The notes under the pieces are model-generated. The model did not search any database. It was given only the letters and a program-made list of their open reading frames with translations, and was not told the origin of the DNA. Below are positions 4,585 to 25,300 of a stretch of 37,034 bases of DNA, piece after piece; the stretch's first letter is position 1; every line of letters starts with the position of its first letter. The position numbers and the translations under genes are program-made. This DNA comes from a virus. The stretch spans positions 1 through 37,034 of the IMG/VR virus record IMGVR_UViG_3300044988_000512; one strand, given 5' to 3'.

Positions 4585-5157
4585 TTACCAGCTAATTTCT
4601 TCGTCGTCGGTGCCGGTCTTGCGTGCGGCGGGCTTGGCTTCCGAAACGTCGAAGCCGTAGGCGGTGGCGCTGCCGCCATCGCCCCAAGTGACGAGGTCAT
4701 GCACCATGATGGCCTTGGGCTGCAGCGTAATGCCGGCGCCGAGCGTGCCCGTGTACCAGCAGTAGGGAACGACCGCGACTTGGATCTTGCTGCCGCCGCC
4801 GATGTTGTCGGTGATGATATCGCCGGAGGCGTTGAAGAGCTTCGGCGCGCGGCTGTAGGTCTCGCCGGCCTTGTCTTTGCCCACGGCTTTGACCTTGAGC
4901 TTCAATTGCGTCATACCGTCGTTGTCTTCCCACGGCGCGGCGTGGAGCTTGAGTTTGTCTTTCTTCAGCTCGGCTTTCTTCTCGGCGACGAACGCGGAGA
5001 AAAGCTCCTCGGCTTGTTTGATGAACGGTTCGGCTTCCTCAGCGGTTAGCTCGAGGTTGACTTTGAACACTCCCACGTCGTCGAACTTGGTGTCGGGACG
5101 GTTGAGGTGAGGATAGCGGGCGATGCCCACGGGTGTGGTTAGGGTCTTATTTGGCAT
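4585..5157 (-). CDS. T7 gp2.5-like single-stranded DNA-binding protein
   Basis: 190 aa. It has an OB-fold-type N-terminal part (T-P-V-G-I-A-R-Y-P-H-L-N-R-P-D), conserved K-V-K-A-V-G and G-S-K-I-Q-V-A-V-V-P-Y strands, and an acidic tail ending D-D-E-E-I-S-W. In gp2.5 the acidic tail with a terminal aromatic residue docks the SSB on replication partners. It probably coats ssDNA and stimulates annealing by the phage nucleases around it. The leader contains ACACAAACAC (5176-5185) and no Shine-Dalgarno. Confidence 0.85.
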   Translation of the reverse strand: MPNKTLTTPVGIARYPHLNRPDTKFDDVGVFKVNLELTAEEAEPFIKQAEELFSAFVAEKKAELKKDKLKLHAAPWEDNDGMTQLKLKVKAVGKDKAGETYSRAPKLFNASGDIITDNIGGGSKIQVAVVPYCWYTGTLGAGITLQPKAIMVHDLVTWGDGGSATAYGFDVSEAKPAARKTGTDDEEISW

Positions 5158-5158
5158 G

Positions 5159-5518
5159 TTATGCGTTGGTTGGTTGTGTTTGTGTTGGGACTAGAAAATC
5201 GGAGCGGCGAAGGATGGTGAGGAAGTCCTGTGCGCGGAGCGTGATGAACCACTCCTCGCCGTTGCGCTTGTGGGCAACGACCGGGAAGAGCTTGGCCTTG
5301 GCATCGCGAATGGCTTGGGCCATCCAGTCGCGGATCTTGACGACCTGGCAGAATTTGACCTCCCAGTGGAAATCGGGCAGGCAAGGGCAGACGACATCGG
5401 GCGAGTCGCCGAGACCGCTGAACTGCTGACCGCGGCGGATGCCGGAGTCGCCGAAGGCTTCGCGCAACTCATCGCGCCACATGCGCTCTCCGCGGGCGCC
5501 TTTTGCGCGACTATTCAT
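5159..5518 (-). CDS. Resolvase-like PD-(D/E)XK endonuclease, 119 aa
   Basis: The order G-A-R-G-E-R-M-W-R-D-E-L (Glu in the first helix), SGLGDSPDVVCP (Asp), HWEVKFCQ (E-x-K) and a later helix fits small Holliday-junction-resolvase or VRR-Nuc-like nucleases of phages. It probably resolves branched replication intermediates before packaging. The ATG at 5518 was chosen because the longer frame is an Arg-rich shadow of the helicase tail; it overlaps the helicase stop by 8 bp. Confidence 0.75.
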   Translation of the reverse strand: MNSRAKGARGERMWRDELREAFGDSGIRRGQQFSGLGDSPDVVCPCLPDFHWEVKFCQVVKIRDWMAQAIRDAKAKLFPVVAHKRNGEEWFITLRAQDFLTILRRSDFLVPTQTQPTNA

Positions 5519-6893
5519 TGATCGCCTCCCAAAGTTGTTTCGCCGGGGCGTAGACCGAGCCGTCGCTGTCGCTAGTGCGTCCCGCGGGTGCGGTGCCTTC
5601 AAAGCGGGTGAGCGAGGGACGCCATGTGAGGTTGAGCGTGCCGGTGCGGCCGGCGCGGTGCTTGGCGACGATCAACTCGGCGTCCTGCGGGTCTGGCTCT
5701 TGATCCTGCACTGCGTAGTACGCGGGACGATGGACAAGGCAAACAATGTCGGCGTCTTGCTCGATGCTGCCGGATTCGCGGAGGTCGCTAAGTTTTGGGC
5801 GGTTGTCGCTGCGGTTTTCGGCCTGCCTGTTAACCTGGGCGGCGGCGACTACAGGGATGCCCAACTCCATGCTCATGGCTTTGAGGCCGCGGGAAACAAA
5901 GCCGACTTCGTTCTCGCGGGACTGGGCGCCGGAGTGACTAACGAGTTGCAGGTAATCAACGAAGACGCACTTGACGCCCCAGCGGCGGACGGCGAGGCGG
6001 GCGCGGCCGCGGATGTCGAGCAGCGTGAGTCCGCCGCGGTCGTCAACGTAGAGGGGTTCGGTGCTGAATTGCGTGGCGGCGTCAAAAATGCGGTGTTTGA
6101 TCGATGCGGTCAAAAATCCGTTCCGAATGATCTCGGTGTTGGTTTCAGCGCGGCCGAGGACCACGCGGGCGGCGAGTTCGTTGGCGGGCATCTCAAGGCT
6201 GAAGTAGACGACCGGGACGCCGCGGCGGGACATGTTGTCGGCCATGTTGAGCATCAGTGCGCTTTTACCCATGGCAGGGCGGCCAGCGATGATGGTAAGC
6301 TGTCCGCCGCGGAGTCCGCCGGTGACTTGGTCAAAGTCGCGGATGCCGGTCTGCAGGCCGAGCTTTTTGCCGCCGGCCATGAGGCTCTCCAGCTCTTCGA
6401 GGAGGCCCGGGACGATGGCGCTGGGGGCGCGCATGCTGTCGGTGGCAGTGGTGAGGCTGAGGCTGAGGACGGACTCGCCGGCTTGCTGGAGGACGCTGTC
6501 GGCATCGGTGGCCATGTCTTGGGCGGCGGCTTGCATGGCGACGCTGGCGTCGATGATGCGGCGGCGGGCGTGGAGGTCGCGGAGGGTTTGCGCGTGATAT
6601 TCGACCGCGGCGCTGCCGCCGGCGTAGTCGCCGAGCATCTCGGTGAGGGCGCCGGCGCCGCCTACGAAGTTGAGTTTGTGCTGCGCGTCGATGCGCTGGG
6701 TGACGGCGATGACGTTGGGCGTGCCGCCTTCACCGCGGACTTCGGCGATGGTCTCGTAGATGAGGCGATGCGCGGGCGTGTAGAAAAGATCGGCGTGGAT
6801 GCCGGAGACTTCGTCGCAAAGTTTGGGATCGGCCATGAGCGAACCGAGGACGGTGCGCTCGGTGGCGGGGCTTTGGGGAACGGTGCGTTTCAT
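5511..6893 (-). CDS. dnaB-like: DnaB-type replicative helicase
   Basis: Ring helicase of the RecA fold that unwinds the fork. An N-terminal DnaB domain (T-E-R-T-V-L-G-S-L-M) is followed by a C-terminal ATPase with Walker A AGRPAMGKSALML, the VYFSLEMP motif, Walker B VKCVFVDYLQLV, and VVAAAQVNRQ followed by an arginine-finger region. Length is 460 aa from ATG 6893, which follows the 31-aa membrane gene by 1 bp; an in-frame ATG at 6917 would add 8 residues and overlap that gene. It probably loads at the origin inside the O-like gene at 8818-9654, as lambda O/P recruits host DnaB. Confidence 0.95.
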   Translation of the reverse strand: MKRTVPQSPATERTVLGSLMADPKLCDEVSGIHADLFYTPAHRLIYETIAEVRGEGGTPNVIAVTQRIDAQHKLNFVGGAGALTEMLGDYAGGSAAVEYHAQTLRDLHARRRIIDASVAMQAAAQDMATDADSVLQQAGESVLSLSLTTATDSMRAPSAIVPGLLEELESLMAGGKKLGLQTGIRDFDQVTGGLRGGQLTIIAGRPAMGKSALMLNMADNMSRRGVPVVYFSLEMPANELAARVVLGRAETNTEIIRNGFLTASIKHRIFDAATQFSTEPLYVDDRGGLTLLDIRGRARLAVRRWGVKCVFVDYLQLVSHSGAQSRENEVGFVSRGLKAMSMELGIPVVAAAQVNRQAENRSDNRPKLSDLRESGSIEQDADIVCLVHRPAYYAVQDQEPDPQDAELIVAKHRAGRTGTLNLTWRPSLTRFEGTAPAGRTSDSDGSVYAPAKQLWEAINE

Positions 6894-6894
6894 G

Positions 6895-6990
6895 TTAGGC
6901 GGCGCCTCCGTCGTCATTGTTTTCCAGAACGACTATGACAATGAGTGTCAGCACGATCAGCACTGCGTAGGTGAGAATGAGCGCGTTCAT
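6895..6990 (-). CDS. 31-aa single-pass membrane peptide
   Basis: Starts M-N-A-L-I-L-T-Y-A-V-L-I-V-L, is hydrophobic for about 22 residues and ends with E-N-N-D-D-G-G. A strong purine-rich Shine-Dalgarno (AGGAAGGAAG) sits just upstream of the ATG at 6990, and the stop is 1 bp before the helicase ATG. It overlaps the 3' part of the 71-aa gene in another frame. The ribosome site and operon fit make a real membrane micro-protein likely; the function is unknown. Confidence 0.55.
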   Translation of the reverse strand: MNALILTYAVLIVLTLIVIVVLENNDDGGAA

Positions 6991-8248: not shown

Positions 8249-8821
8249 TTAAGGATGGGGTGGGACATTTGTTGTCCCATGGGTCAAAGATTCTTGGGAA
8301 TATGTAGCTGCGACTTGGTCGAGGAGTTCCCAGTTGTCGGGGTCGCGGTCGGCCATAAGCTCGCCGTGCACGCCGCGAGAAACCATGCGGGCTACTTTTC
8401 TGAATTCTTGCGGCTGGTAGTTCGTGCTAACCCGATTGGCAAACTCAGATCTTGTGTAAAAAAGCCACTGCTTGCGGTCGGGCAGATAGGCCGCCAACAC
8501 GTCGTAAGCGTGCCGTGAGTACGGCTTATTATTGCGAGCAGTGTTGTAAATTTTGTAGGCGCTTTGGCGAGGAGTCCAAATGCCGGTTTTCTCTTGAATT
8601 ACTAATGGCCGGCCCGGCGGTTTGCGGATGATGTGATCAAAATCTCTGCCGCCTCCAATGTTGACTGCGACTTCGTAGCCGCGCTCTAGGGCTGCGATTT
8701 CAAAACGCTTTTCAACAATTGCGCCCTTTGGGCCAGAATCAATCTGCAGAGCGGCTACCCCACCCTCAGTCACCGCAGAATGCTCGCCATCGGTCAGCGC
8801 AAATAAAGCGGGCTGCGTCAC
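8249..8821 (-). CDS. PD-(D/E)XK endonuclease-like protein, 190 aa
   Basis: The arrangement GAIVEKRFEIAALERGYEVA (Glu in a helix), GGGRDFDHIIR (D60, D62) and LVIQEKTGIW (Q76-x-K78 with E77) is that of small PD-(D/E)XK nucleases such as the PDDEXK_5 or resolvase-like group. The rest is mixed alpha/beta. A GTG start at 8821 overlaps the initiator stop as GTGA. Its position between the initiator and helicase genes fits a role in replication or recombination; restriction-like activity cannot be excluded. Confidence 0.65.
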   Translation of the reverse strand: MTQPALFALTDGEHSAVTEGGVAALQIDSGPKGAIVEKRFEIAALERGYEVAVNIGGGRDFDHIIRKPPGRPLVIQEKTGIWTPRQSAYKIYNTARNNKPYSRHAYDVLAAYLPDRKQWLFYTRSEFANRVSTNYQPQEFRKVARMVSRGVHGELMADRDPDNWELLDQVAATYSQESLTHGTTNVPPHP

Positions 8822-9654
8822 GCTGCGTTCTCCTTTGCGAATTGTTCGCGCATCTCGGCGAGGGAGCGCTCGAGGGCGGTTTGTTTGGGTTGGCCCTGCA
8901 CAGGCAAAGGGATCGGCTGGCGCTGTTGGCGCAGCTTCTGCAGCTCGTCGGGGAAGACGACGCCGGAATAGTTGTTGACGATGGCGCGTTCCATCTTCTC
9001 GACCGCATCGCGCTCGTTGAACTCGGCTAGTTGTTTAAGGAGTCGGCGGGCGCCAATCTCGGTAAGGGGCGACCGCTTCTGGCGCTTGTGCTCAATCAGA
9101 TCAACCCAGACCGCGGCGAAACCTGGGCCGTGAGGCAGGGGCAAGGATGCTGGGTCAAATTTGGGAGCGGTGGCGCGTTTTGGCTTGGGTGCTTCCTTTT
9201 CCGAAGAAGAGGGTAGCGAAGGCGATGAAATCGCCGGAGCGGGCGCGTCAGCGCCTTTATTACGTTCCTTTATGTTCCTTATTGTTGGGGTCTCATTCTG
9301 ACACCACTTGGGTCTCATTCTGACACTACTTGGGTCTCTTTCTGAGACCGGTCTCATTCTGAGACCCATCTCGGCGGACACGCCGGGGATCTTCCAAATC
9401 GATGCCTCGGCGCCGTCTCCGGCCAGCTTGCGGTGGCCCTTTTCGACCATGATCAGCTCGCCGCGGTCCTGCAGGCGGCGCAGGCAGCGGGCGACCGTAG
9501 CGCGGGCCAGCCGGGTCTTCTCCTCGAGCTTGCCCCATGAACCGAAGCAGTTGCCCGCCTCATCGGCAAAGTCGGCCAAGGCCAGCAGGACAAGCCGGTC
9601 GGCACCCTCCGCGGGCGACTGGGTCCAGACGTAGTTGGTGGCGGCTACGCTCAT
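8818..9654 (-). CDS. O-like replication initiator with N-terminal winged helix
   Basis: 278 aa. Residues 1-90 read as a winged helix-turn-helix (L-A-L-A-D-F-A-D-E-A-G, then LARATVARCLRRLQDRGELI), as in lambda-O/phage-replication-type N-termini. The middle is a Ser/Pro/Ala-rich linker and the C-terminal 100 residues are helical, the usual site for helicase contact. The DNA for residues about 96-123 carries four iteron-like repeats (9287-9367), so protein and origin probably overlap, as in lambda O. The ATG at 9654 overlaps the previous stop as ATGA. The helicase gene lies 2 kb downstream in the same operon. Confidence 0.75.
   Translation of the reverse strand: MSVAATNYVWTQSPAEGADRLVLLALADFADEAGNCFGSWGKLEEKTRLARATVARCLRRLQDRGELIMVEKGHRKLAGDGAEASIWKIPGVSAEMGLRMRPVSERDPSSVRMRPKWCQNETPTIRNIKERNKGADAPAPAISSPSLPSSSEKEAPKPKRATAPKFDPASLPLPHGPGFAAVWVDLIEHKRQKRSPLTEIGARRLLKQLAEFNERDAVEKMERAIVNNYSGVVFPDELQKLRQQRQPIPLPVQGQPKQTALERSLAEMREQFAKENAA
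9251..9367. other. Candidate replication origin: four iterons plus AT-rich stretch inside the initiator gene
   Basis: Units GGGTCTCATTCTGACACC (9288-9305), GGGTCTCATTCTGACACT (9310-9327), GGGTCTCTTTCTGAGACC (9332-9349) and GGTCTCATTCTGAGACCC (9350-9367) share the imperfect palindrome GTCTC-N5-GAGAC. The first three are spaced by exactly 22 bp. On the left lies an AT-rich stretch (9256-9286) with GTTCCTT repeated at 9264 and 9274. This is the lambda-ori layout of iterons followed by a melting region. It is predicted, not tested. Confidence 0.75.
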
Positions 9655-10052: not shown

Positions 10053-10462
10053 GCTGCTAGTTGCTCCTGTTGGATTTGCTGGTGTTGTTGTGCTTCGGGC
10101 TTTTGGGCCGCGATTTCCAAATACTCAGCGACCTCATTGAGCATCGGATCGCCGTTGTGGTTGATGACGGTTGTGCGTCCGTCAAAAGACCAATGGATCC
10201 AAGGGCAGCCGTGCCACTTGTCTGGCCGGCACCTGCCAATCTCGATGAGCGCGTTGCCGCCGTCCCAACAGATAATGCCATCCGGTATCTGGCGCCCCCT
10301 GCGGCCAGAGTTCAGCGTTCCCATAAGGGCATGGGTGAACATCTCGTCGATGCTCCCGCCGACCCTCATGTCTTCCCACACCTGTTGCAGCGTGTAGATG
10401 ACCCAAGGGATGAGGTTAATCATCGCCTCATGCAGTGGTCCGCCGTCTTTGCCGTAGCTCAT
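10049..10462 (-). CDS. Hypothetical protein, 137 aa, Gln-rich tail
   Basis: The first 110 residues are a compact alpha/beta domain with many Trp (I-P-W-V-I-Y-T-L-Q-Q-V-W-E, C-P-W-I-H-W-S-F-D-G). Around I-C-W-D-G-G-N-A-L-I-E-I-G there is a nuclease-like strand pair, but no catalytic set can be defended. The tail is Gln/His/Ala-rich. The leader is AT-rich with no Shine-Dalgarno. The function is unknown. Confidence 0.65.
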   Translation of the reverse strand: MSYGKDGGPLHEAMINLIPWVIYTLQQVWEDMRVGGSIDEMFTHALMGTLNSGRRGRQIPDGIICWDGGNALIEIGRCRPDKWHGCPWIHWSFDGRTTVINHNGDPMLNEVAEYLEIAAQKPEAQQHQQIQQEQLAA

Positions 10463-16711: not shown

Positions 16712-16936
16712 CTATGAGCGGAACAATTCCGCTAGACGCGCGAAATCGTCCGCGGTCGGCTCCCAATTTTCATCGGCAGCCTTGCCACCCGCGGTGACGT
16801 AGTAGTGGTCCTTACCGGGTTCCGGCCGCAAGGATTGCTCGCCGGCGCCCCAGTTCTTGCTTCGCATTACTTCCACGAAGGTCAGCGGGCGTTGCGGTTG
16901 TGTATTCTTCGATGCCGTAGACTGCTGTTGAGACAT
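16712..16936 (-). CDS. Hypothetical protein, 74 aa, last gene of the late operon
   Basis: Starts M-S-Q-Q-Q-S-T-A-S and contains L-T-F-V-E-V-M-R-S-K-N-W and K-D-H-Y-Y-V-T-A-G-G. The ATG at 16936 has AAAGGAAGG just upstream. It overlaps the 3' end of the giant gene by 125 nt in another frame, an unusually long overlap for two real genes; both frames look coding there. It is followed by the terminator at 16655. The function is unknown. Confidence 0.55.
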   Translation of the reverse strand: MSQQQSTASKNTQPQRPLTFVEVMRSKNWGAGEQSLRPEPGKDHYYVTAGGKAADENWEPTADDFARLAELFRS

Positions 16937-19900
16937 AGCCTTCCTTTCTATAACTGACATTATCTTGATTCTCGAGATTGGCAATAGCCCTTCTGGCTTT
17001 GTCAACCCACTGGCCAGAGTTTATTGCAAACTGATCTGGATTCAAATGATCCAATGTGTCATACCTTGCCGAGATCTCTGGAACATATTGAGAGCGAACG
17101 CCTAGCGCATCGCCTCGCTCGTTTCTGGCGATGGTAAAACCGTCGATGCCATTGGCCCGGAAAGCGGCCGTGACCGCATCCACCTGAGCCTTGGTGGCCG
17201 CACTCTTAAATCCAACCTCCACCATGGGGCGCGCGTTTGGGTGCAGCTCATCGACGACCAGGCTAATGATCACGTCCTTTTGGTTGTTCCGTTGCGCTGT
17301 CTCGATAGCGCTCCGCATCACCGGCTCAATGCTCGGCGAAACGTCGCCGCGGCGGTTGACGCTGAACTCCACATCGAAGCTCGGCTCCACGACATCGCCG
17401 TAAAGCCCCTCCGATTCCGTGATGCGCGCCGCCTCAAGTCCGTCTAGGCCGCGCACGCTCTCGCGGAATGTGTTCATCTCCGAGCGCTGCACCGCAGGAT
17501 CAAACTGCTCGGGCGTTGTAAATGTCGTCAGCCCCACTTGGTAGCGGTCCACGTTGAGCTTGCCGGCTTCCTTGTCGAACGAGCTTTTCTCCGCGCCTGT
17601 TTTATCGGTCCAGCCGTTCACCTCCCAAACGTCCTTCTCGTTAAACCATTGCAGCGCTTGCAAGTCATCAGTCGGCACGCCCATGCGCCGGCCGACCTCA
17701 TCGTAGACTTTCTGCGAGAAGAAAAAGTCCGCGTCCGTCACGCCCTGCTCCTGCTCCGGCAGGATGCGCCAGCGCGCTTTCTTGCCTTGGTAAAGTAGGC
17801 GGCGAAGATTGCGAGCCGCCCATACGTCGATGGTCGCCTTAAATGTGCGTCCGGTTAGGTTGCCGGCAAAGTTTGGCGTCTTCGGTCCTTTGGTCTGCGC
17901 GATCCAGTTGCCATACAGCGCATGCAGCACCTTGGTGCTATTGGCGTTGTATTTCTTGCCATTGGCCCGCAGCGGCACTTCTTTGAACGAGTTCACCTGC
18001 TTGCGGTATTCGTCCTCGAGCTTAAATGCCCCCTTGCCGCCCTTTTTGCGCCAGTCGGCTTCCATCTTGCCGCTGTCCGCATCCGCCTTCTTCTGCATCA
18101 CGAACGCATCAAACCGCTTTAGCAAATCATCGTAGGCGCCGCGGCCAAACATCTGCAGAGCTTCGCGCGCCTGGATAAAGTTCATGTCCACCGGCGTACG
18201 AGCCGAGGTAGCGCCGAGCAATTGCCCAAAGCGCTCGATGGTCGCGCCGTAGGCATTCTGCAGCCACGACCGCATGCGACCATACCAGCCGATGCCCTTG
18301 GCTATGGCTGGATTCTGTTGCCCGCGCCGCGCATCGGCTTCCATCAAGTCCGCCGCCTGCTGCACCGCACGCGCCTCGTCCTTCGACAGCCCCGGGGCTT
18401 CGCGCAATCCGTATTTCTCGCCCTTGTAAATGGCGCCAAACATTTGGTTGCCGCGGGCATCCAGCACAGGATTCCCATCGCTGTCTTCGATTAGTCCGAC
18501 CTTTGGCAATCCGCGGTCGTCGCGAGTGACCTCAAGACGTGCCGCCTCGGGGTTATTCCTGGCAACCTCCGCAATTCGCTTCTGCGCCTCGGTGATAGCC
18601 TTCTGCTCGCGCGGCCCGAGATATTGCTTCGCGTCTTGCAGCGACAGTCCGCTAAAAAATTCTTTCTCGGCTCGAGTTCTGGCCTGCGCCTCGGTTGCAT
18701 ATTCGGCAACCTTGGTCGGCGGCAACACGACCTGGCGACCATCCTTGTCAACTGACACCATCGGCGACGTGAAGACCTGCCACTTGCCGTTGGCCCCCTT
18801 GCGCAGCATTCCGAGCGGCTCGTATTGGCCGGCCGGGTCGCGCTGGATCAGTGTTTGCTGGTCGGTTGGTCCGCCCATTTGCTCAAGACCTGGGGGGTCT
18901 TCTAATAGTGCCGATGGCCGTTGCCCGCTTCTGTACAGCGCTTGATTGTGTCGTGCGGCTGCAGCCAGCGACTCCCGCGGCGATTCGCCCATTGCGTCGT
19001 CCATTGTTTGTGACCCAAAGCGGAAGAAGCCGTCCTCGCCGATGCTGCCGGCGCCGATGGCCAAGAAGTCCGGCCCGAGATCCTCGTTGGTCTCAAAGTG
19101 CGTGCGCTTGTTGGTGCTGACCACACGTCCGTCTGCGCCGACAAACGCAGCGCGCCTGGCTCGCTCATTGAGCGGGATGTCTGCGCGCTCGGAATAAGCC
19201 GCGCTGGCACTTCTTTTTGCGTCCCGCGGCAATGCCGCACCCTCTGCCGGTCGCTCGTTCGGCACCGGGAACTCGCGGCGATACTCGGCATCCGCGGCGC
19301 GGAATCCGGCGGCGTCAGCTCCCTGCCAGTTGGTCGAGTTGCTGTAGCCGCGGCGCGCGGCCTGCTGGTTCAAGTAAGCGCTCTTGCGGTCGGCGTCGAA
19401 TTGGCGCCACTCGTCAAGCGACATCACACCCACCTCGCGCGGCAGGGCGTTGGTGTTGATCTTGTGGTAGTGCGGGAAGTAGCCGGTGCCAAAGGGATCG
19501 GCGTAGTTGAGTCGGTCGAAACGGAACGTGCGGATGCTGCCCTTGGGGTTCAGATCGCCGTAGAGCGGATTGGCTGCCTTCTGCGTGGGCGTGCCAGTGC
19601 CGAGCAGTCCGTTGAGCAGGTTCTTTTTCTGCGCTCCGAGGTTGGTCTCGCCGGGCACTCCGTCTTCGTGATTCTTGAGCAGCACCTTGAGGCCGGCCTC
19701 AACGTCTTTCACGTTGTTGTTGAACTCCGGCAACTCTCCGCGGTCCACCGCGCGGATCGCCGCGGCGCGGAAGGCATCAAGATCGATGACCTTGGCCAGC
19801 AGGTGGTTCTTGTCCGAGAGCTGCCATCCGAAAGGCACCACCTCGCGGGCGATCGCCTCGACGTTGCCCAGGTTGCTCACCTTGTAACTGCCGCTCGCTC

Positions 19901-22900
19901 CGGTGCCGATGGCGTTGTACGAAACGCGGTAGCTTTGCCCGGTGCGGCGACCCGCTTCAAACTCGCGCGCCTTGGTCCGCAGCCACTGCGGCACCTGCAC
20001 GAAGTTGTCGAACTGCAGCGGAAGATTAGGCCCGCCGACTTCCACGCGGTTGCCCACCTTGCGGGCGCCCCACTCGGCACTATGCACCGGCACCAGGCGT
20101 GTGCGCGTGTTGATCGACTTGAGCGTTGCCGCCCGCGCCTTCTCCTGCGTGTTGACCTGCTGCTGCGACTTCGGCATCGGGTTGCCGTTCGCGTCTAAGA
20201 TAAAGATGTCGTTCTCCACCACCGCTCCGTTTTGATAGACGCGGTTATGCGGACTGCGCGCCGCCTCGCTGGCCTTGCCGGTCGGCGCCACCTTCGTGCC
20301 GCGCTTTTTCGGCGCCGAGTCGCGCTCCATGCCGACCAGGTAGCGCTCAAATTGTTTCGTATAGTTGGTCACCGCTCGGCGCATCTCTGGCGTGTCAAAC
20401 AGCGGATTCTCCTCGAAAACCCGGTTCGGCGTTTCCAGCCGGCCGTTGCCGCGGAACTTCGCACCCATCATGTCAAAGAGTCCGCTGGCCGCACCGAGCA
20501 TACCGGCAAGCGGCCCGCCCTCGCGCATACGTCGGAAGTCGATACCTCCCGACAGCCCGGAGAATGTCTCCGCGGCGATCTCATCCCGCGCCCAGTCCCA
20601 CTCCATATTGCCCTCGGCGAGGTCGCGTTGATTCTTGTCCTCGATGCGCTCGTCGATCATGCGCTGCCGCATCTGCGGATCTTCCCAGCGCGCCCGCACG
20701 ATGTCCTCCGGCGAAGCGCCATTGGCCACCCGCTGCATCTCCGCATCGGTCAGCACCTCCGGCTTGATGCCGGTCACGCCCGCCTCGACTTCGCGCGCCA
20801 TGATGCTGGCCAAATACTCGCGCCCGCGGGCCTGCACACCGTCTTGGCCATACTGCACGTTGACCTGGTTGCGCATGTTGTTTTTGATCTCGCCGCCCAG
20901 GATGTCGCTCTTGAGGATGGCGTGCCCGATTTCGTGGCCGGCCACATCGCCCGAGGCGAGCTGATCAATATCGAGGAAGATGCGCGGCCGATTGCCGTCC
21001 GAAGCATCGACAAAAAGCCCCTTGGTCGTCTCACGACTAGCCGCCGGCATGGCGAGGTTGGCTGCGTAGTCCTGCGCCGATAGCGGCACCCAGTCCACCT
21101 TGGTGGACACCACACCCTGCATGGCAGCGTAGCGGGCCAATGTTTCGTGCGGCAGTTGGGAGAAGTAGGCCGCGTCACCGCCCGCCGCGTCCACGTCGGC
21201 CAGCATGCGCGCGATGTCCGCGTCGATCATCTGCGTGCGACGCGCCAAGGGTCCGCCAATCAATCCGCCCGCGGCGCCCATTGTGGCGATGGCGCCAAAA
21301 ATCTGCGACTGCTGGTCCTCCGGCGCAATCAAAGCAAACGGCGAGGCCACCGCGGCGCCCGCTAGTCCGCCGGACACGGCGTCATCGGCCAATCGGAACG
21401 CCTGCGTCACGCCTGTGTTATCGAGCGCCCCCAACGTCCTGCGCGCCCGCAGCGACATGCCCTCGTTCTGCGAAGCCCTCTTGAGCGAGCTTTCCGGTCC
21501 CGAAAAGAATCCGCGCATTGCCTCGCGGTAGCGCCCGGGGATCGCCGCATCGTCCGCCAGCCTAGACGCCGAGTCCGCGCGAAATACGCCCACGCCGCCC
21601 ACGCCCATTTCCTTCACGACCATCTGGCCCGACTGCGCCGCGGACTCCACGCCGCGCAGGATGCCGCCGCTTTTGCGCACCGCCGGCAGCACCGCGGCGG
21701 CTAAGGCAATGCCCTTGGCTACGTCATTGTTCTGCGAAAATCCCAGCGCGCCGGAACCAACCGCCACACCGAAGGAAGCCTTAGCCAAGCGGTCACTCGT
21801 CAGGCCAGCGCGCATCAACCGGTCTTGCAGGTTCTCGGCTTTGGTCGCCGCCCAGCCCGCGCTTTTGGCCACGCCACCCAGCGGCTTGTCGGCCAGAATC
21901 GAAATGCGCCGCAGCGCCCGCAGCTTGGAAAGCCCGCCCGCGCCCATCGGCAAAATGGCCAACGGGTCTAGTGCAAGCATGCCGAAGGTCGCCAAACCCT
22001 CGTCCACCTTCGAGTCATCAATGCCGTAAGCGCGCTTCGTCACCGACTCCGCGGTGATCTGCGACGGCTGGCCACCGACCGTCTTGGGGCCGAAAATTCT
22101 TCCTGTCTCGATGGGATCGTTGCCCATCGTAAAGTTATCAATGCCGAGAAACTCCTGCTCCAGCGCCCGGTTGCGCACGAAGCGGTCGTAAGCCGTCTTG
22201 CGATCCTCTTGCGCCTGCGCGGCGGTCTCCTCCAGCGTTCTGTCATAAAGACCAGCCGCACGAGCCTCGTGAAACGCTTGCTCAAGGATTGCCTCATCCT
22301 GCTGCGCGTTGCCGGTGAATTTGTTCTCCGCGGCGAGCTGCTGCCGGATTTTGTCATTGATCGCCGCGCTACGGCGAATGTCGCTGCTGCTGTCCGCGTA
22401 GACATCGCCCGCGTAATTAATAATCTCAGCCAGCCCCACGCCCGAGCGCCGCGCGCCCTCGGCCAGGCTATGCACCATCGTGTCGTACGCCGGCCCGAAG
22501 CCGCGGAAGACAAAGTCACCGGGCAACTTGCCCAGACTCCAGACCACGCCGCCTATTGCACTGGCAATTGACCCGGCGCCTTGAAAAAACCCATTCACCG
22601 CATTAGACCGCGCCGCCCGCTTTTGATCCCAAGAGTCCCACTCGTTAAACGTCGGGATGTAAGACGGGTCGCGCACCGTCTGGTCCTCCAACTCGTCCAT
22701 TTCCCAGTCGGATAGCGGGCGCTGCTCCTCCTCCGGTAGCTGCGGCGCCGCGGGATCGGTCGCCCGGCCAAACGGCGTCTGCTGCACCGCCGTGCCGGTG
22801 CCGGCGCGCATTTCCGCCGACTCCATCTGCGCGTCCGAGAGCGGCTCCTCCCGCGGCACGCCGACCACGGTGCCCCAGAATGACTCTGACGCCTGCGCCT

Positions 22901-22961
22901 GCTGCTCGAGGGCGTTCATCTCCTCGTCAGTGAGTGGGCGTGTTATCGCTGCGGTAGCCAT
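16812..22961 (-). CDS. Giant 2049-aa polyvalent virion protein with HEIGH metallopeptidase-like motif
   Basis: Probably an internal, ejected virion protein, the size and position class of T7 gp16 or the large polyvalent proteins of other phages. Residues 1-110 are acidic and carry three copies of a PL[ST]D-x-x-M motif (about 9, 40 and 82). Residues 121-145 are hydrophobic. H676-E677-I-G-H680 (AGHEIGHAIL) is a zinc-peptidase signature; residues after about 900 are mixed alpha/beta with K-x-Y-rich stretches I cannot assign. The start overlaps the previous stop by 19 bp. I see no phage lysozyme motif. Confidence 0.8.
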   Translation of the reverse strand: MATAAITRPLTDEEMNALEQQAQASESFWGTVVGVPREEPLSDAQMESAEMRAGTGTAVQQTPFGRATDPAAPQLPEEEQRPLSDWEMDELEDQTVRDPSYIPTFNEWDSWDQKRAARSNAVNGFFQGAGSIASAIGGVVWSLGKLPGDFVFRGFGPAYDTMVHSLAEGARRSGVGLAEIINYAGDVYADSSSDIRRSAAINDKIRQQLAAENKFTGNAQQDEAILEQAFHEARAAGLYDRTLEETAAQAQEDRKTAYDRFVRNRALEQEFLGIDNFTMGNDPIETGRIFGPKTVGGQPSQITAESVTKRAYGIDDSKVDEGLATFGMLALDPLAILPMGAGGLSKLRALRRISILADKPLGGVAKSAGWAATKAENLQDRLMRAGLTSDRLAKASFGVAVGSGALGFSQNNDVAKGIALAAAVLPAVRKSGGILRGVESAAQSGQMVVKEMGVGGVGVFRADSASRLADDAAIPGRYREAMRGFFSGPESSLKRASQNEGMSLRARRTLGALDNTGVTQAFRLADDAVSGGLAGAAVASPFALIAPEDQQSQIFGAIATMGAAGGLIGGPLARRTQMIDADIARMLADVDAAGGDAAYFSQLPHETLARYAAMQGVVSTKVDWVPLSAQDYAANLAMPAASRETTKGLFVDASDGNRPRIFLDIDQLASGDVAGHEIGHAILKSDILGGEIKNNMRNQVNVQYGQDGVQARGREYLASIMAREVEAGVTGIKPEVLTDAEMQRVANGASPEDIVRARWEDPQMRQRMIDERIEDKNQRDLAEGNMEWDWARDEIAAETFSGLSGGIDFRRMREGGPLAGMLGAASGLFDMMGAKFRGNGRLETPNRVFEENPLFDTPEMRRAVTNYTKQFERYLVGMERDSAPKKRGTKVAPTGKASEAARSPHNRVYQNGAVVENDIFILDANGNPMPKSQQQVNTQEKARAATLKSINTRTRLVPVHSAEWGARKVGNRVEVGGPNLPLQFDNFVQVPQWLRTKAREFEAGRRTGQSYRVSYNAIGTGASGSYKVSNLGNVEAIAREVVPFGWQLSDKNHLLAKVIDLDAFRAAAIRAVDRGELPEFNNNVKDVEAGLKVLLKNHEDGVPGETNLGAQKKNLLNGLLGTGTPTQKAANPLYGDLNPKGSIRTFRFDRLNYADPFGTGYFPHYHKINTNALPREVGVMSLDEWRQFDADRKSAYLNQQAARRGYSNSTNWQGADAAGFRAADAEYRREFPVPNERPAEGAALPRDAKRSASAAYSERADIPLNERARRAAFVGADGRVVSTNKRTHFETNEDLGPDFLAIGAGSIGEDGFFRFGSQTMDDAMGESPRESLAAAARHNQALYRSGQRPSALLEDPPGLEQMGGPTDQQTLIQRDPAGQYEPLGMLRKGANGKWQVFTSPMVSVDKDGRQVVLPPTKVAEYATEAQARTRAEKEFFSGLSLQDAKQYLGPREQKAITEAQKRIAEVARNNPEAARLEVTRDDRGLPKVGLIEDSDGNPVLDARGNQMFGAIYKGEKYGLREAPGLSKDEARAVQQAADLMEADARRGQQNPAIAKGIGWYGRMRSWLQNAYGATIERFGQLLGATSARTPVDMNFIQAREALQMFGRGAYDDLLKRFDAFVMQKKADADSGKMEADWRKKGGKGAFKLEDEYRKQVNSFKEVPLRANGKKYNANSTKVLHALYGNWIAQTKGPKTPNFAGNLTGRTFKATIDVWAARNLRRLLYQGKKARWRILPEQEQGVTDADFFFSQKVYDEVGRRMGVPTDDLQALQWFNEKDVWEVNGWTDKTGAEKSSFDKEAGKLNVDRYQVGLTTFTTPEQFDPAVQRSEMNTFRESVRGLDGLEAARITESEGLYGDVVEPSFDVEFSVNRRGDVSPSIEPVMRSAIETAQRNNQKDVIISLVVDELHPNARPMVEVGFKSAATKAQVDAVTAAFRANGIDGFTIARNERGDALGVRSQYVPEISARYDTLDHLNPDQFAINSGQWVDKARRAIANLENQDNVSYRKEGYVSTAVYGIEEYTTATPADLRGSNAKQELGRRRAILAAGTR

Positions 22962-23992
22962 CCGTCAGGAGTTCTGACCCAGGTTTGATTGCCGACTTTT
23001 TTGGTTTGCTGCGGCGCGGCCTGTCCGCCAGTAGACGCTGCCGGAGCATTGCTCCCGGTCGTGTCATCGCTTTCGCTCGGCAACGCTTGGTTGGTCGCCG
23101 GGTTCACTACCGCCTTGTCTGCCGCTTTCAGCATGTCGCGCTTTTCCGACAAGTATTGCTCGTATACTTCCCAATGCTGCCTAGAGCCTGGCACCAACGT
23201 GCGCAAATATTTCAATTCGTCTTGCGAAATCGGGCGCAAATATTTGGTCATGTCCAAGACATCGATATTAATCAATCGGTCTAGCTTTGCTCGCTTGGCT
23301 TGCATCTTGGGATTAAATGCAGCGTCGTACATCCCGCCGACCGTTCCGTCGAATGGCCCGACCAAGCTGGCGTAGTCTTTGTCTTTTAGAACTTCTTCAA
23401 TATTTTTAAGCGTTGCCTGCCGGCGGATTTTAAAGTCGTTCTGGACGGCCTCGCGCTCGGCAATTTTCGACTTACGATCTGCAAGCTGCGCCTGCTTGAG
23501 CGGGTCTTCCCTCTGCATTGCAACCCTGTCCTGCTTTTGCCGGAACTCATCAGCCAGCCGCGCGGCCTCCGAGGCAGGCACCTTCTTCATGTTCTTGATA
23601 TTTTCGTAGACGTAGCGCGACTGGGGATCGAGGGAGTTGTAAATATTGCGCGCCTCGTCGGTTTGGCCTGCGGCATGGAGCTGTGCGATTTGTTGGAACG
23701 GCTCAAAGTTAAAATGCACGCCCTTGGCCGGGACGCTCATCGTGGCACGGCGCACCTCGGCGGGCACCTCCTCCGGCGCTTGATCGGTCATCCCGCCAAA
23801 CTCCGTCAGCGGGACAGGGTTGCCCTGTGCGTCGCGCACTGGCGGAAGGGTTTCGTCATCGGATGCTCCGAGTGAATTATTAACGCTAGTTTGGCTAGGG
23901 GTCATAGGGTCTTTGGTAGGTAGTGCCGGCTCAACCACCATGCCGTCCGGTGGCTGGGTTAGCGGATAACGCTGGTCGCGGCGGCGACTCAT
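22943..23992 (-). CDS. Internal virion protein candidate, 349 aa
   Basis: The N-terminus is Pro/Thr-rich and disordered. Residues about 90-230 form long charged helices with coiled-coil spacing (SEAARLADEFRQKQDRVA and others). The C-terminus has a linker rich in Ala, Gln and Thr, then W-V-R-T-P-D-G-W-L-P. It lies between other ejection-type genes and just before the giant, so a core or ejectosome subunit is likely. No family name can be defended. Confidence 0.6.
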   Translation of the reverse strand: MSRRRDQRYPLTQPPDGMVVEPALPTKDPMTPSQTSVNNSLGASDDETLPPVRDAQGNPVPLTEFGGMTDQAPEEVPAEVRRATMSVPAKGVHFNFEPFQQIAQLHAAGQTDEARNIYNSLDPQSRYVYENIKNMKKVPASEAARLADEFRQKQDRVAMQREDPLKQAQLADRKSKIAEREAVQNDFKIRRQATLKNIEEVLKDKDYASLVGPFDGTVGGMYDAAFNPKMQAKRAKLDRLINIDVLDMTKYLRPISQDELKYLRTLVPGSRQHWEVYEQYLSEKRDMLKAADKAVVNPATNQALPSESDDTTGSNAPAASTGGQAAPQQTKKVGNQTWVRTPDGWLPQR

Positions 23993-24490: not shown

Positions 24491-25300
24491 TTAAGCTGCT
24501 TCCGCCCGCAGGTAGCTGGGGCGTTCTTTTTGTGACCATCTGAGCTGATCGCTCACATTGCTCACCAATTGGCCAAGCCGTGGGCACAGCACCTCGGCGG
24601 GTCCGTCCTTGGCCATGCACGCCGTGCAGGCGGTCACATAGTCAGGGTTGTCACCTTTGTCCTCCCGCTCCCGCCATGACTCGCCGACCTTCTCGTAGCG
24701 TCCATAGTGGATGGGCAAATTGTTCTCTTCGATGTAGCGCCACACGTCCTCATCGGTGAAGAGGCGAATCGGGAAGACGAGGCTGGCGCTGTCCAGGTTG
24801 CGCGCCACGTCGGTGCGGATCGTGATGTCGCCGTAGACCGCATCCGTATCGCTCGCCTTGTGGCCATGGAACATCGCATCCCACGGCCAATTGAACGTGC
24901 CGGTCGGGCGCTGGTAGATGTCATTGAGTCCGCAGACAAAGTCCTCGCCGTCCTTCGGAGCGCGGATGCCGGTCGGCAGCATATTGTAGCGGGCGCCGAT
25001 CTGGTAGTATCCGGCGATCTCCACCTCGCCACCGCCGTCCTGCACAAAGGTCGCCGAGGGAGGGAAGTCGTAGACCCGCAGTCCGTAGTGCTGGATCACC
25101 GCATCGGCGAACCGATACTTGTGCGGCTGCCAAGGCTCGCGGTGGAAGACAACCGGCAGGTCATCCCGGTGCCGCCGCACCAAGTCCAGCACCACCATGC
25201 TGTCCTTGCCGAATGAGCAAGCGATGCACGGATTGCCAAACTCAACGAGCGACTGCTCGATGAGCCGGTGAGCGTAGGAGACTTTGTCTTCGTAGGTCAT
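24491..25300 (-). CDS. PAPS-reductase/PP-loop (CysH-like) family protein
   Basis: 269 aa. The PP-loop S29-F-G-K-D-S34 in IACSFGKDSMVVLDLV binds an adenylated substrate. PIRLFTDEDVWRYIEENNLP is the conserved C-terminal core of the adenylylsulfate/PAPS reductase family, and C225-x2-C228 and C239 form a possible metal or disulfide set. The double-Cys [4Fe-4S] signature of assimilatory reductases is absent. It could act in sulfur activation or DNA modification chemistry; no Dnd-type partner genes are seen here. It sits inside the virion operon and overlaps the previous stop as TAATG. Confidence 0.75.
   Translation of the reverse strand: MTYEDKVSYAHRLIEQSLVEFGNPCIACSFGKDSMVVLDLVRRHRDDLPVVFHREPWQPHKYRFADAVIQHYGLRVYDFPPSATFVQDGGGEVEIAGYYQIGARYNMLPTGIRAPKDGEDFVCGLNDIYQRPTGTFNWPWDAMFHGHKASDTDAVYGDITIRTDVARNLDSASLVFPIRLFTDEDVWRYIEENNLPIHYGRYEKVGESWREREDKGDNPDYVTACTACMAKDGPAEVLCPRLGQLVSNVSDQLRWSQKERPSYLRAEAA

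Follow-up and report, generated by a model that had tools for sequence, protein, structure and literature searches.

The DNA analysed here (the window) comprises the 37,034 nucleotides of the IMG/VR virus record IMGVR_UViG_3300044988_000512 and encodes an O-like replication initiator on its minus strand (Table 1). In a profile search this ORF matched PHROG 678, 'replication initiation O-like' (E 3.9e-19). Nine more PHROGs, mostly initiator or primosomal families, matched as well, and Pfam HTH_36 scored above its cut-off. HTH_36 was the only Pfam match at E <= 1e-3; Phage_rep_O, the family of the lambda O N-terminus proper, was not matched. No relative was found among solved structures, and in bacterial genomes we detected distant relatives only, no close ones.

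About 2 kb downstream of the initiator gene, the same strand encodes a DnaB-like replicative helicase, which is probably the client loaded at the origin; an exonuclease gene is located downstream on this strand, too. Directly downstream, an ORF at 8249-8821 (minus strand) overlaps the initiator gene; it matches PHROG 5018 (unknown function) and shows a weak PD-(D/E)XK nuclease match below the Pfam cut-off. The largest ORF of the window (16812-22961, minus strand) encodes 2049 amino acids, and a 269-aa ORF (24491-25300, minus strand) matched phage phosphoadenosine phosphosulfate reductase families (E 7e-10).

Table 1. Location of the initiator gene, the DNA elements inside it and neighbouring replication genes in the window
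Feature	Position	Strand	Frame	Basis or remark
O-like replication initiator gene, 278 aa	8818..9654	minus		PHROG 678, Pfam HTH_36
Winged-helix DNA-binding domain, residues 1-88	9391..9654	minus		AlphaFold2 model; covariation with iteron type
Predicted recognition helix, residues 51-63	9466-9504	minus		AlphaFold2 model
Specificity-tracking residues Ala52 and Arg56	9499-9501 (Ala52), 9487-9489 (Arg56)	minus		Covariation with iteron type
Predicted disordered linker, residues 95-158	9181..9372	minus		pLDDT < 50; DNA carries iterons and AT-rich element
C-terminal helical domain of initiator, residues 177-244	8923..9126	minus		AlphaFold2 model; L043 comparison
Iteron 1, GGTCTCAGAATGAGACC	9350..9366	minus	0	
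Iteron 2, GGTCTCAGAAAGAGACC	9333..9349	minus	2	Abuts iteron 1
Iteron 3, AGTGTCAGAATGAGACC	9311..9327	minus	0	Followed by CAAGT spacer
Iteron 4, GGTGTCAGAATGAGACC	9289..9305	minus	1	
AT-rich putative unwinding element	9251..9286	minus		64% AT; directly 3' of array, still in gene
DnaB-like replicative helicase	5511..6917	minus		PHROG 19 E 7e-97; Pfam DnaB_C E 2.6e-84
Gp2.5-like ssDNA-binding/annealing protein	4585..5157	minus		PHROG 112 E 3e-23; same replication/recombination block

The AlphaFold2 model of the initiator, built from 32 family members, reached a mean pLDDT of 64 and a pTM of 0.34. Given this modest overall confidence we used it at domain level only. The winged-helix region showed block means of pLDDT of 73-87 in residues 1-70, the wing being formed by residues 68-88. 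The O-like HTH assumed from the sequence alone is borne out by the family matches, and the iterons lie in the DNA of the predicted disordered linker. According to the model, iterons and AT-rich stretch are thus placed in the segment of the initiator whose amino acids should matter least.

The iteron array

Four 17-bp hyphenated palindromes (GGTCTCAGAATGAGACC-like) were found at 9289-9366 inside the initiator gene. The same four-copy family can be written as 22-bp units (9288-9309, 9310-9331, 9332-9353 and 9349-9370). The iteron starts are spaced by 22, 22 and 17 bp in window coordinates, which is 17, 22 and 22 in gene order. GTCTC-N5-GAGAC occurs in two units and GTCTC-N5-GACAC in the other two. 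This agrees with a sequence-only reading of the window, which had described four GTCTC-N5-GAGAC-like copies, three of them 22 bp apart; 'like' is apt for the two GACAC units. In gene order the iterons encode GLRMRP, VSERDP, SVRMRP and CQNETP, and the peptides quoted in that reading were correct. Its statement that the repeats are read in different frames holds in so far as every codon frame occurs; units 1 and 3, however, coincide in theirs (GLRMRP and SVRMRPK).

The 15-bp core of the palindromes matched four times without mismatch in the 80 bp of the array. With up to 2 mismatches we counted 13 matches in the window, compared to 4.2 +/- 2.0 in shuffles (maximum 10). The codons of the initiator gene were furthermore shuffled synonymously in 1000 rounds, self-identity being scored at any shift of 15-29 bp. 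The tandem self-identity within the gene was 36/39, whereas shuffles reached 29/39 at most and reproduced the periodicity in 0 of 1000 rounds, indicating that the protein sequence does not account for the DNA pattern.

With GGTCTC/GAGACC, the palindrome arms are recognition sequences of BsaI/Eco31I, so that this iteron type places several of these sites in the putative origin. They are absent from the type B (GGTGCA) and type C (GGTCTAA) arrays of relatives.

Iteron types and recognition helix in relatives

About 100 relatives were compared overall; 80 IMG/VR loci plus further scans yielded 87 unique genes, 72 of them close family. A DNA-only search for the iteron skeleton led to 72 contigs, nearly all shared with the protein search. 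Across the 72 unique close-family genes a unit spacing of 17/22/22, 32/22/22 or 17/22/22/22 recurs. The half-sites vary among relatives (GGTCTCA, GGTCTAA/GGTCCAR, GGTGCA, GGTGTCA), all copies of one gene switching together. Copies within one gene are 80% identical, compared to 59% for same-position copies of different types. Thus, in the alignment of homologues that the sequence-only reading had proposed as a check, iteron positions are kept and peptides vary. The concerted switch across frames follows the HTH and, together with the synonymous shuffles, upholds the view that selection acts on the DNA.

Iteron type varies together with residues 52 and 56 of the initiator, which lie close to where its recognition helix begins: Ala/Arg goes with GGTCTCA iterons, Ala/Asn with either GGTCTAA or GGTCCAR iterons, Arg/Asp with GGTGCA, and both Arg/Arg and Ser/Arg mainly with GGTGTCA. 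Type D with Ser/Arg (L185, L187) is mixed. This covariation comprises about 10 distinct helices, the counts ignoring phylogeny.

The type B representative L230 is identical to the window initiator at 76/90 positions of the HTH domain, at 108/110 of the last 110 amino acids and at 12/26 of the iteron-encoded linker. L043 combines a different HTH and different iterons with a C-terminal half almost identical to that of the window. In L123 and L125, unrelated HTH domains and iterons (TGACGCAGCGTCA and CTGACAATTTGTCAG, respectively) are joined to the C-terminal domain of the window's family. Judged from these comparisons, the C-terminal domain of the initiator is exchanged independently of HTH plus iterons.

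The distant type G genes (L125, L126, L127) have another HTH and CTGACAATTTGTCAG repeats, which mostly keep the reading frame at a spacing of 21 bp and differ in copy number among the three; their C-terminal domain resembles that of the window. An O-like gene of a Chloroflexi MAG (L249), encoding a very distant protein, carries GGGTGCAAATTCTGCACCC palindromes similar to the type B half-site.

The AT-rich flank and the GAAC-core repeats

The AT-rich element reads AACAATAAGGAACATAAAGGAAC on the coding strand; hardly any other 36-bp stretch of the initiator gene, whose AT content is 38%, is richer in AT. AAC occurs in the element with a 10-bp period (9284-9286, 9274-9276 and 9264-9266), the second and third belonging to the two AAGGAAC copies. 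These are the repeated GTTCCTT noted from the opposite strand, and the AT-rich stretch described there is real. The AAGGAAC-bearing element is unique in the window. In 23/23 distinct family flanks, irrespective of iteron type, AAC is found at 0, 9-10 and 19-20 nt past the last iteron.

In distant O-like genes of bacterial genomes, too, palindromes stand after the HTH, with repeats such as AGAACCATCA behind them. IMG/VR was scanned blindly for GAACCATCA-N1-5-GAACCATCA, which returned at least 120 stretches, of which 80 loci were fetched. In 70 of these the paired GAACCATCA lies inside an O-like ORF, 70 times in sense and never in antisense. Among the matches listed, the 70 ORFs form 43 clusters at 60% identity, with GAACCATCA read in frames 0, 1 and 2 in 29, 7 and 8 clusters, at spacings of 10, 11, 12 and 13 bp, and encoding most often E-P-S (29/43). 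Among the same matches, repeat families in the 160 bp upstream of the motif have a mean size of 5.0, compared to 2.0 downstream and 2.1 in shuffles, and exceed the 95th percentile in 38/43 clusters; the motif zone is 57% AT, compared to 44%. One permuted motif served as control and gave 25 stretches in the whole IMG/VR collection, none of them (0/25) in an O-like ORF.

We also examined a set of 43 genes picked by protein or family similarity irrespective of the motif. GAACC pairs at 9-13 nt numbered 21 in sense and 0 in antisense (0.4 expected). At least two phased GAAC were present in 24 genes in sense and 2 in antisense (9 expected), and at least three in 10 and 2, respectively (0.6 expected), these gene counts being approximate since some include GAAC within iterons (e.g. 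L326). This strand asymmetry fits a single-strand reading of the repeats by the initiator or a loader.

The layout of array plus GAAC flank is found in cultured phages, too. Pseudomonas phage MD8 carries GAACC four times at 11-12 bp, Salmonella ST64B, E. coli Ayreon and Vibrio VPBES have the flank word GAACCAGTCA, Burkholderia Bcep176 has GAACAGTA, and mycobacteriophage Xavia has GGAACAGG with an 8-bp period. By eye, neither array nor GAAC flank was seen in Pseudomonas phage F10. The RepA of mycobacteriophage Miko has been suggested to hold an internal origin (PMC7157519); inspection by eye revealed no obvious palindromic array or GAACC repeat in it.

The window itself contains exact GAACCATCA no more often than expected by chance, and its initiator gene holds no exact or one-mismatch copy. 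In place of paired GAACCATCA, its flank shows the AAGGAAC/AAC variant with the 10-bp period. With at least two sense GAAC about 8-17 bp apart and 3' of the array as the broader definition, the window falls into the class (GGAACATAAAGGAAC, spacing 10); as it has AAGGAAC and not GAACCATCA, this placement rests on the shared core, position and phasing. AAGGAAC x3 as a blind search pattern proved unspecific: 1/80 hits was O-like, and many others were 9-nt-periodic repeats in long ORFs.

Taken as a general proposal, O-like in-gene origins of phages and prophages from several bacterial phyla might carry a second code: a coding-strand GAAC-core word (GAACCATCA, GAACCAGTCA, GAACAGTA or AAGGAAC), phased at about a helical turn and serving as a strand-specific unwinding or helicase-loading signal that is read as ssDNA and would be new as a general element of phage origins. 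We put this forward tentatively, at slightly less than even odds. The open-access papers listed for GAACCATCA dealt with subjects other than phage origins, which is weak evidence of novelty.

Origin reading and alternative explanations

In our interpretation the site in the window is, with a probability of about 0.9, a replication origin of the lambda type that lies within the O-like initiator gene. Copying very probably starts at this mid-gene DNA site. The comparison with relatives supports the lambda-type origin proposed in the sequence-only reading: the gene is O-like, a helicase gene lies downstream, the iterons are conserved and their switch tracks the HTH. The initiator gene would hold two DNA codes, namely palindromes covarying with the DNA-reading helix and, beside them, a coding-strand GAAC word.

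GC skew, suggested there as a further check, does not support an origin position at 9.3 kb. The cumulative skew has turning points at 10,175, which is close to the site, and at 23,588, the former with a sign opposite to the leading-strand G excess of an origin at 9.3 kb. Owing to this wrong sign and the other turn, GC skew was set aside as origin evidence. When third codon positions of minus-strand genes with the same orientation are considered, the skew changes its sign somewhere from about 10.46 to 10.6 kb, and hence the turn is not an effect of gene orientation.

By analogy, we infer the following steps for the window phage. O dimers would bind the iterons via their N-terminal winged helix, and the array would bend and strain the DNA so that the adjacent AT-rich DNA opens. 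O or a partner may read the GAAC-type repeats, which lie on one strand and about one helical turn apart, in single-stranded form. The C-terminal domain of the initiator would recruit the DnaB-like helicase of the phage, which is then loaded.

Alternatively, the palindromes might be an operator array for repression of the own operon or for copy-number control, with the origin elsewhere. HTH proteins often autoregulate, the array is located early in the replication operon, and the site is unmarked by GC skew. However, the array lies about 290 bp inside the gene, away from the gene start, and the whole family has the AT-rich AAC-phased element downstream of it. Moreover, array and GAAC flank recur in O-like genes of unrelated phages, and lambda offers a precedent, making an operator very unlikely. 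The GC-skew turning points elsewhere would also suit an origin that is a relic, inherited by a phage now replicating from another site, but tens of divergent relatives retain near-perfect iterons and flank, accompanied by corresponding changes in the HTH, and we consider a relic extremely unlikely.

Selection of the repeats as protein, with the DNA repeat as a mere by-product of a repetitive linker peptide, could be suspected from the low-complexity linker, from the mostly in-frame repeats of type G and from the predominance of E-P-S among the GAACCATCA clusters listed. It is already contradicted by units that stand in frames 0, 2, 0 and 1 and encode different peptides; GAACCATCA, too, is used in all frames and at four spacings, and synonymous shuffles never reproduced the array. 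The probability of this explanation is practically negligible. More weight, though still on the unlikely side, is due to the idea that the GAAC-type repeats exert their effect at the mRNA level, or via transcription running through the origin, and not as DNA unwinding or ssDNA sites. Their strict coding-strand placement (70 to 0) suits RNA as well as a strand-specific DNA element, and opening of the lambda origin depends on transcriptional activation (PMC5043065). On the other hand, the repeats stand directly 3' of palindromes of the initiator-binding type, in AT-enriched surroundings and with a spacing near the helical turn.

The relatives make it testable how an initiator's DNA code and its origin evolve together if a single DNA segment contains the two. 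They form a natural series (Ala52/Arg56 with GGTCTCA, Ala52/Asn56 with GGTCTAA, Arg52/Asp56 with GGTGCA, Ser or Arg52/Arg56 with GGTGTCA). As a sequence signature, the GAAC-core flank allows candidate origins of uncultivated phages to be proposed from their DNA alone.

Comparison with known systems

An origin inside the initiator gene is textbook knowledge for lambda. The likeness to lambda claimed in the sequence-only reading is correct, lambda O also containing in-gene iterons and an AT-rich region. The in-gene iterons of lambda (J02459), at spacings of 20/24/23, change frame as well; frame-changing iterons in the window are therefore not new. Compared to lambda O/ori-lambda and the Stx phages P27 and 933W, the window differs in iteron sequence and in its spacing of 17/22/22. 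Unlike lambda, the window phage encodes its own DnaB-like helicase. The AT-rich tract of lambda (ACACAAAAGACACTATTACAAAAG) has no GAAC repeats, whereas the window side has GGAAC/AAC phased at 10 bp, and the window initiator is set apart from the lambda O family by the missing Phage_rep_O match. For lambda and the Stx phages, iteron footprints and binding of O to ssDNA of the AT-rich tract have been published (PMC7466680).

The origin specificity types of the lambdoid phages lambda, phi80 and 82 go back to Furth and Yates 1978, as cited in PMC6022878. HTH and iterons change there as one specificity cassette, too, with the C-terminal part exchanged independently. The window family differs in being a single metagenomic family with single-helix resolution (residues 52 and 56), and in that one C-terminal family is combined with whole unrelated HTH and iteron cassettes (L123, L125).

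The DnaA-trio/DnaD recognition element of B. subtilis oriC (PMC10201434) resembles the flank as a short strand-specific repeat beside double-strand initiator sites. The B. subtilis motif is read as single strand (PMC10201434), and such a reading is proposed for the phage GAAC repeats. Trinucleotide repeats or TnnT pairs make up the bacterial element, whereas the phage repeats have a GAAC core and a period of about 8-13 bp, and the initiators are O-like and not DnaA/DnaD. Iteron plasmids (P1, RK2 and others; PMC5043065) share the combination of iteron array and AT-rich unwinding region; in the window, by contrast, the palindromes lie inside the initiator gene. The GAAC-core flank suggests an unwinding signal shared beyond lambda. 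The in-gene iteron layout is already known. What goes further than lambda is the flank, and it is this GAAC-core flank and the specificity series that deserve more attention.
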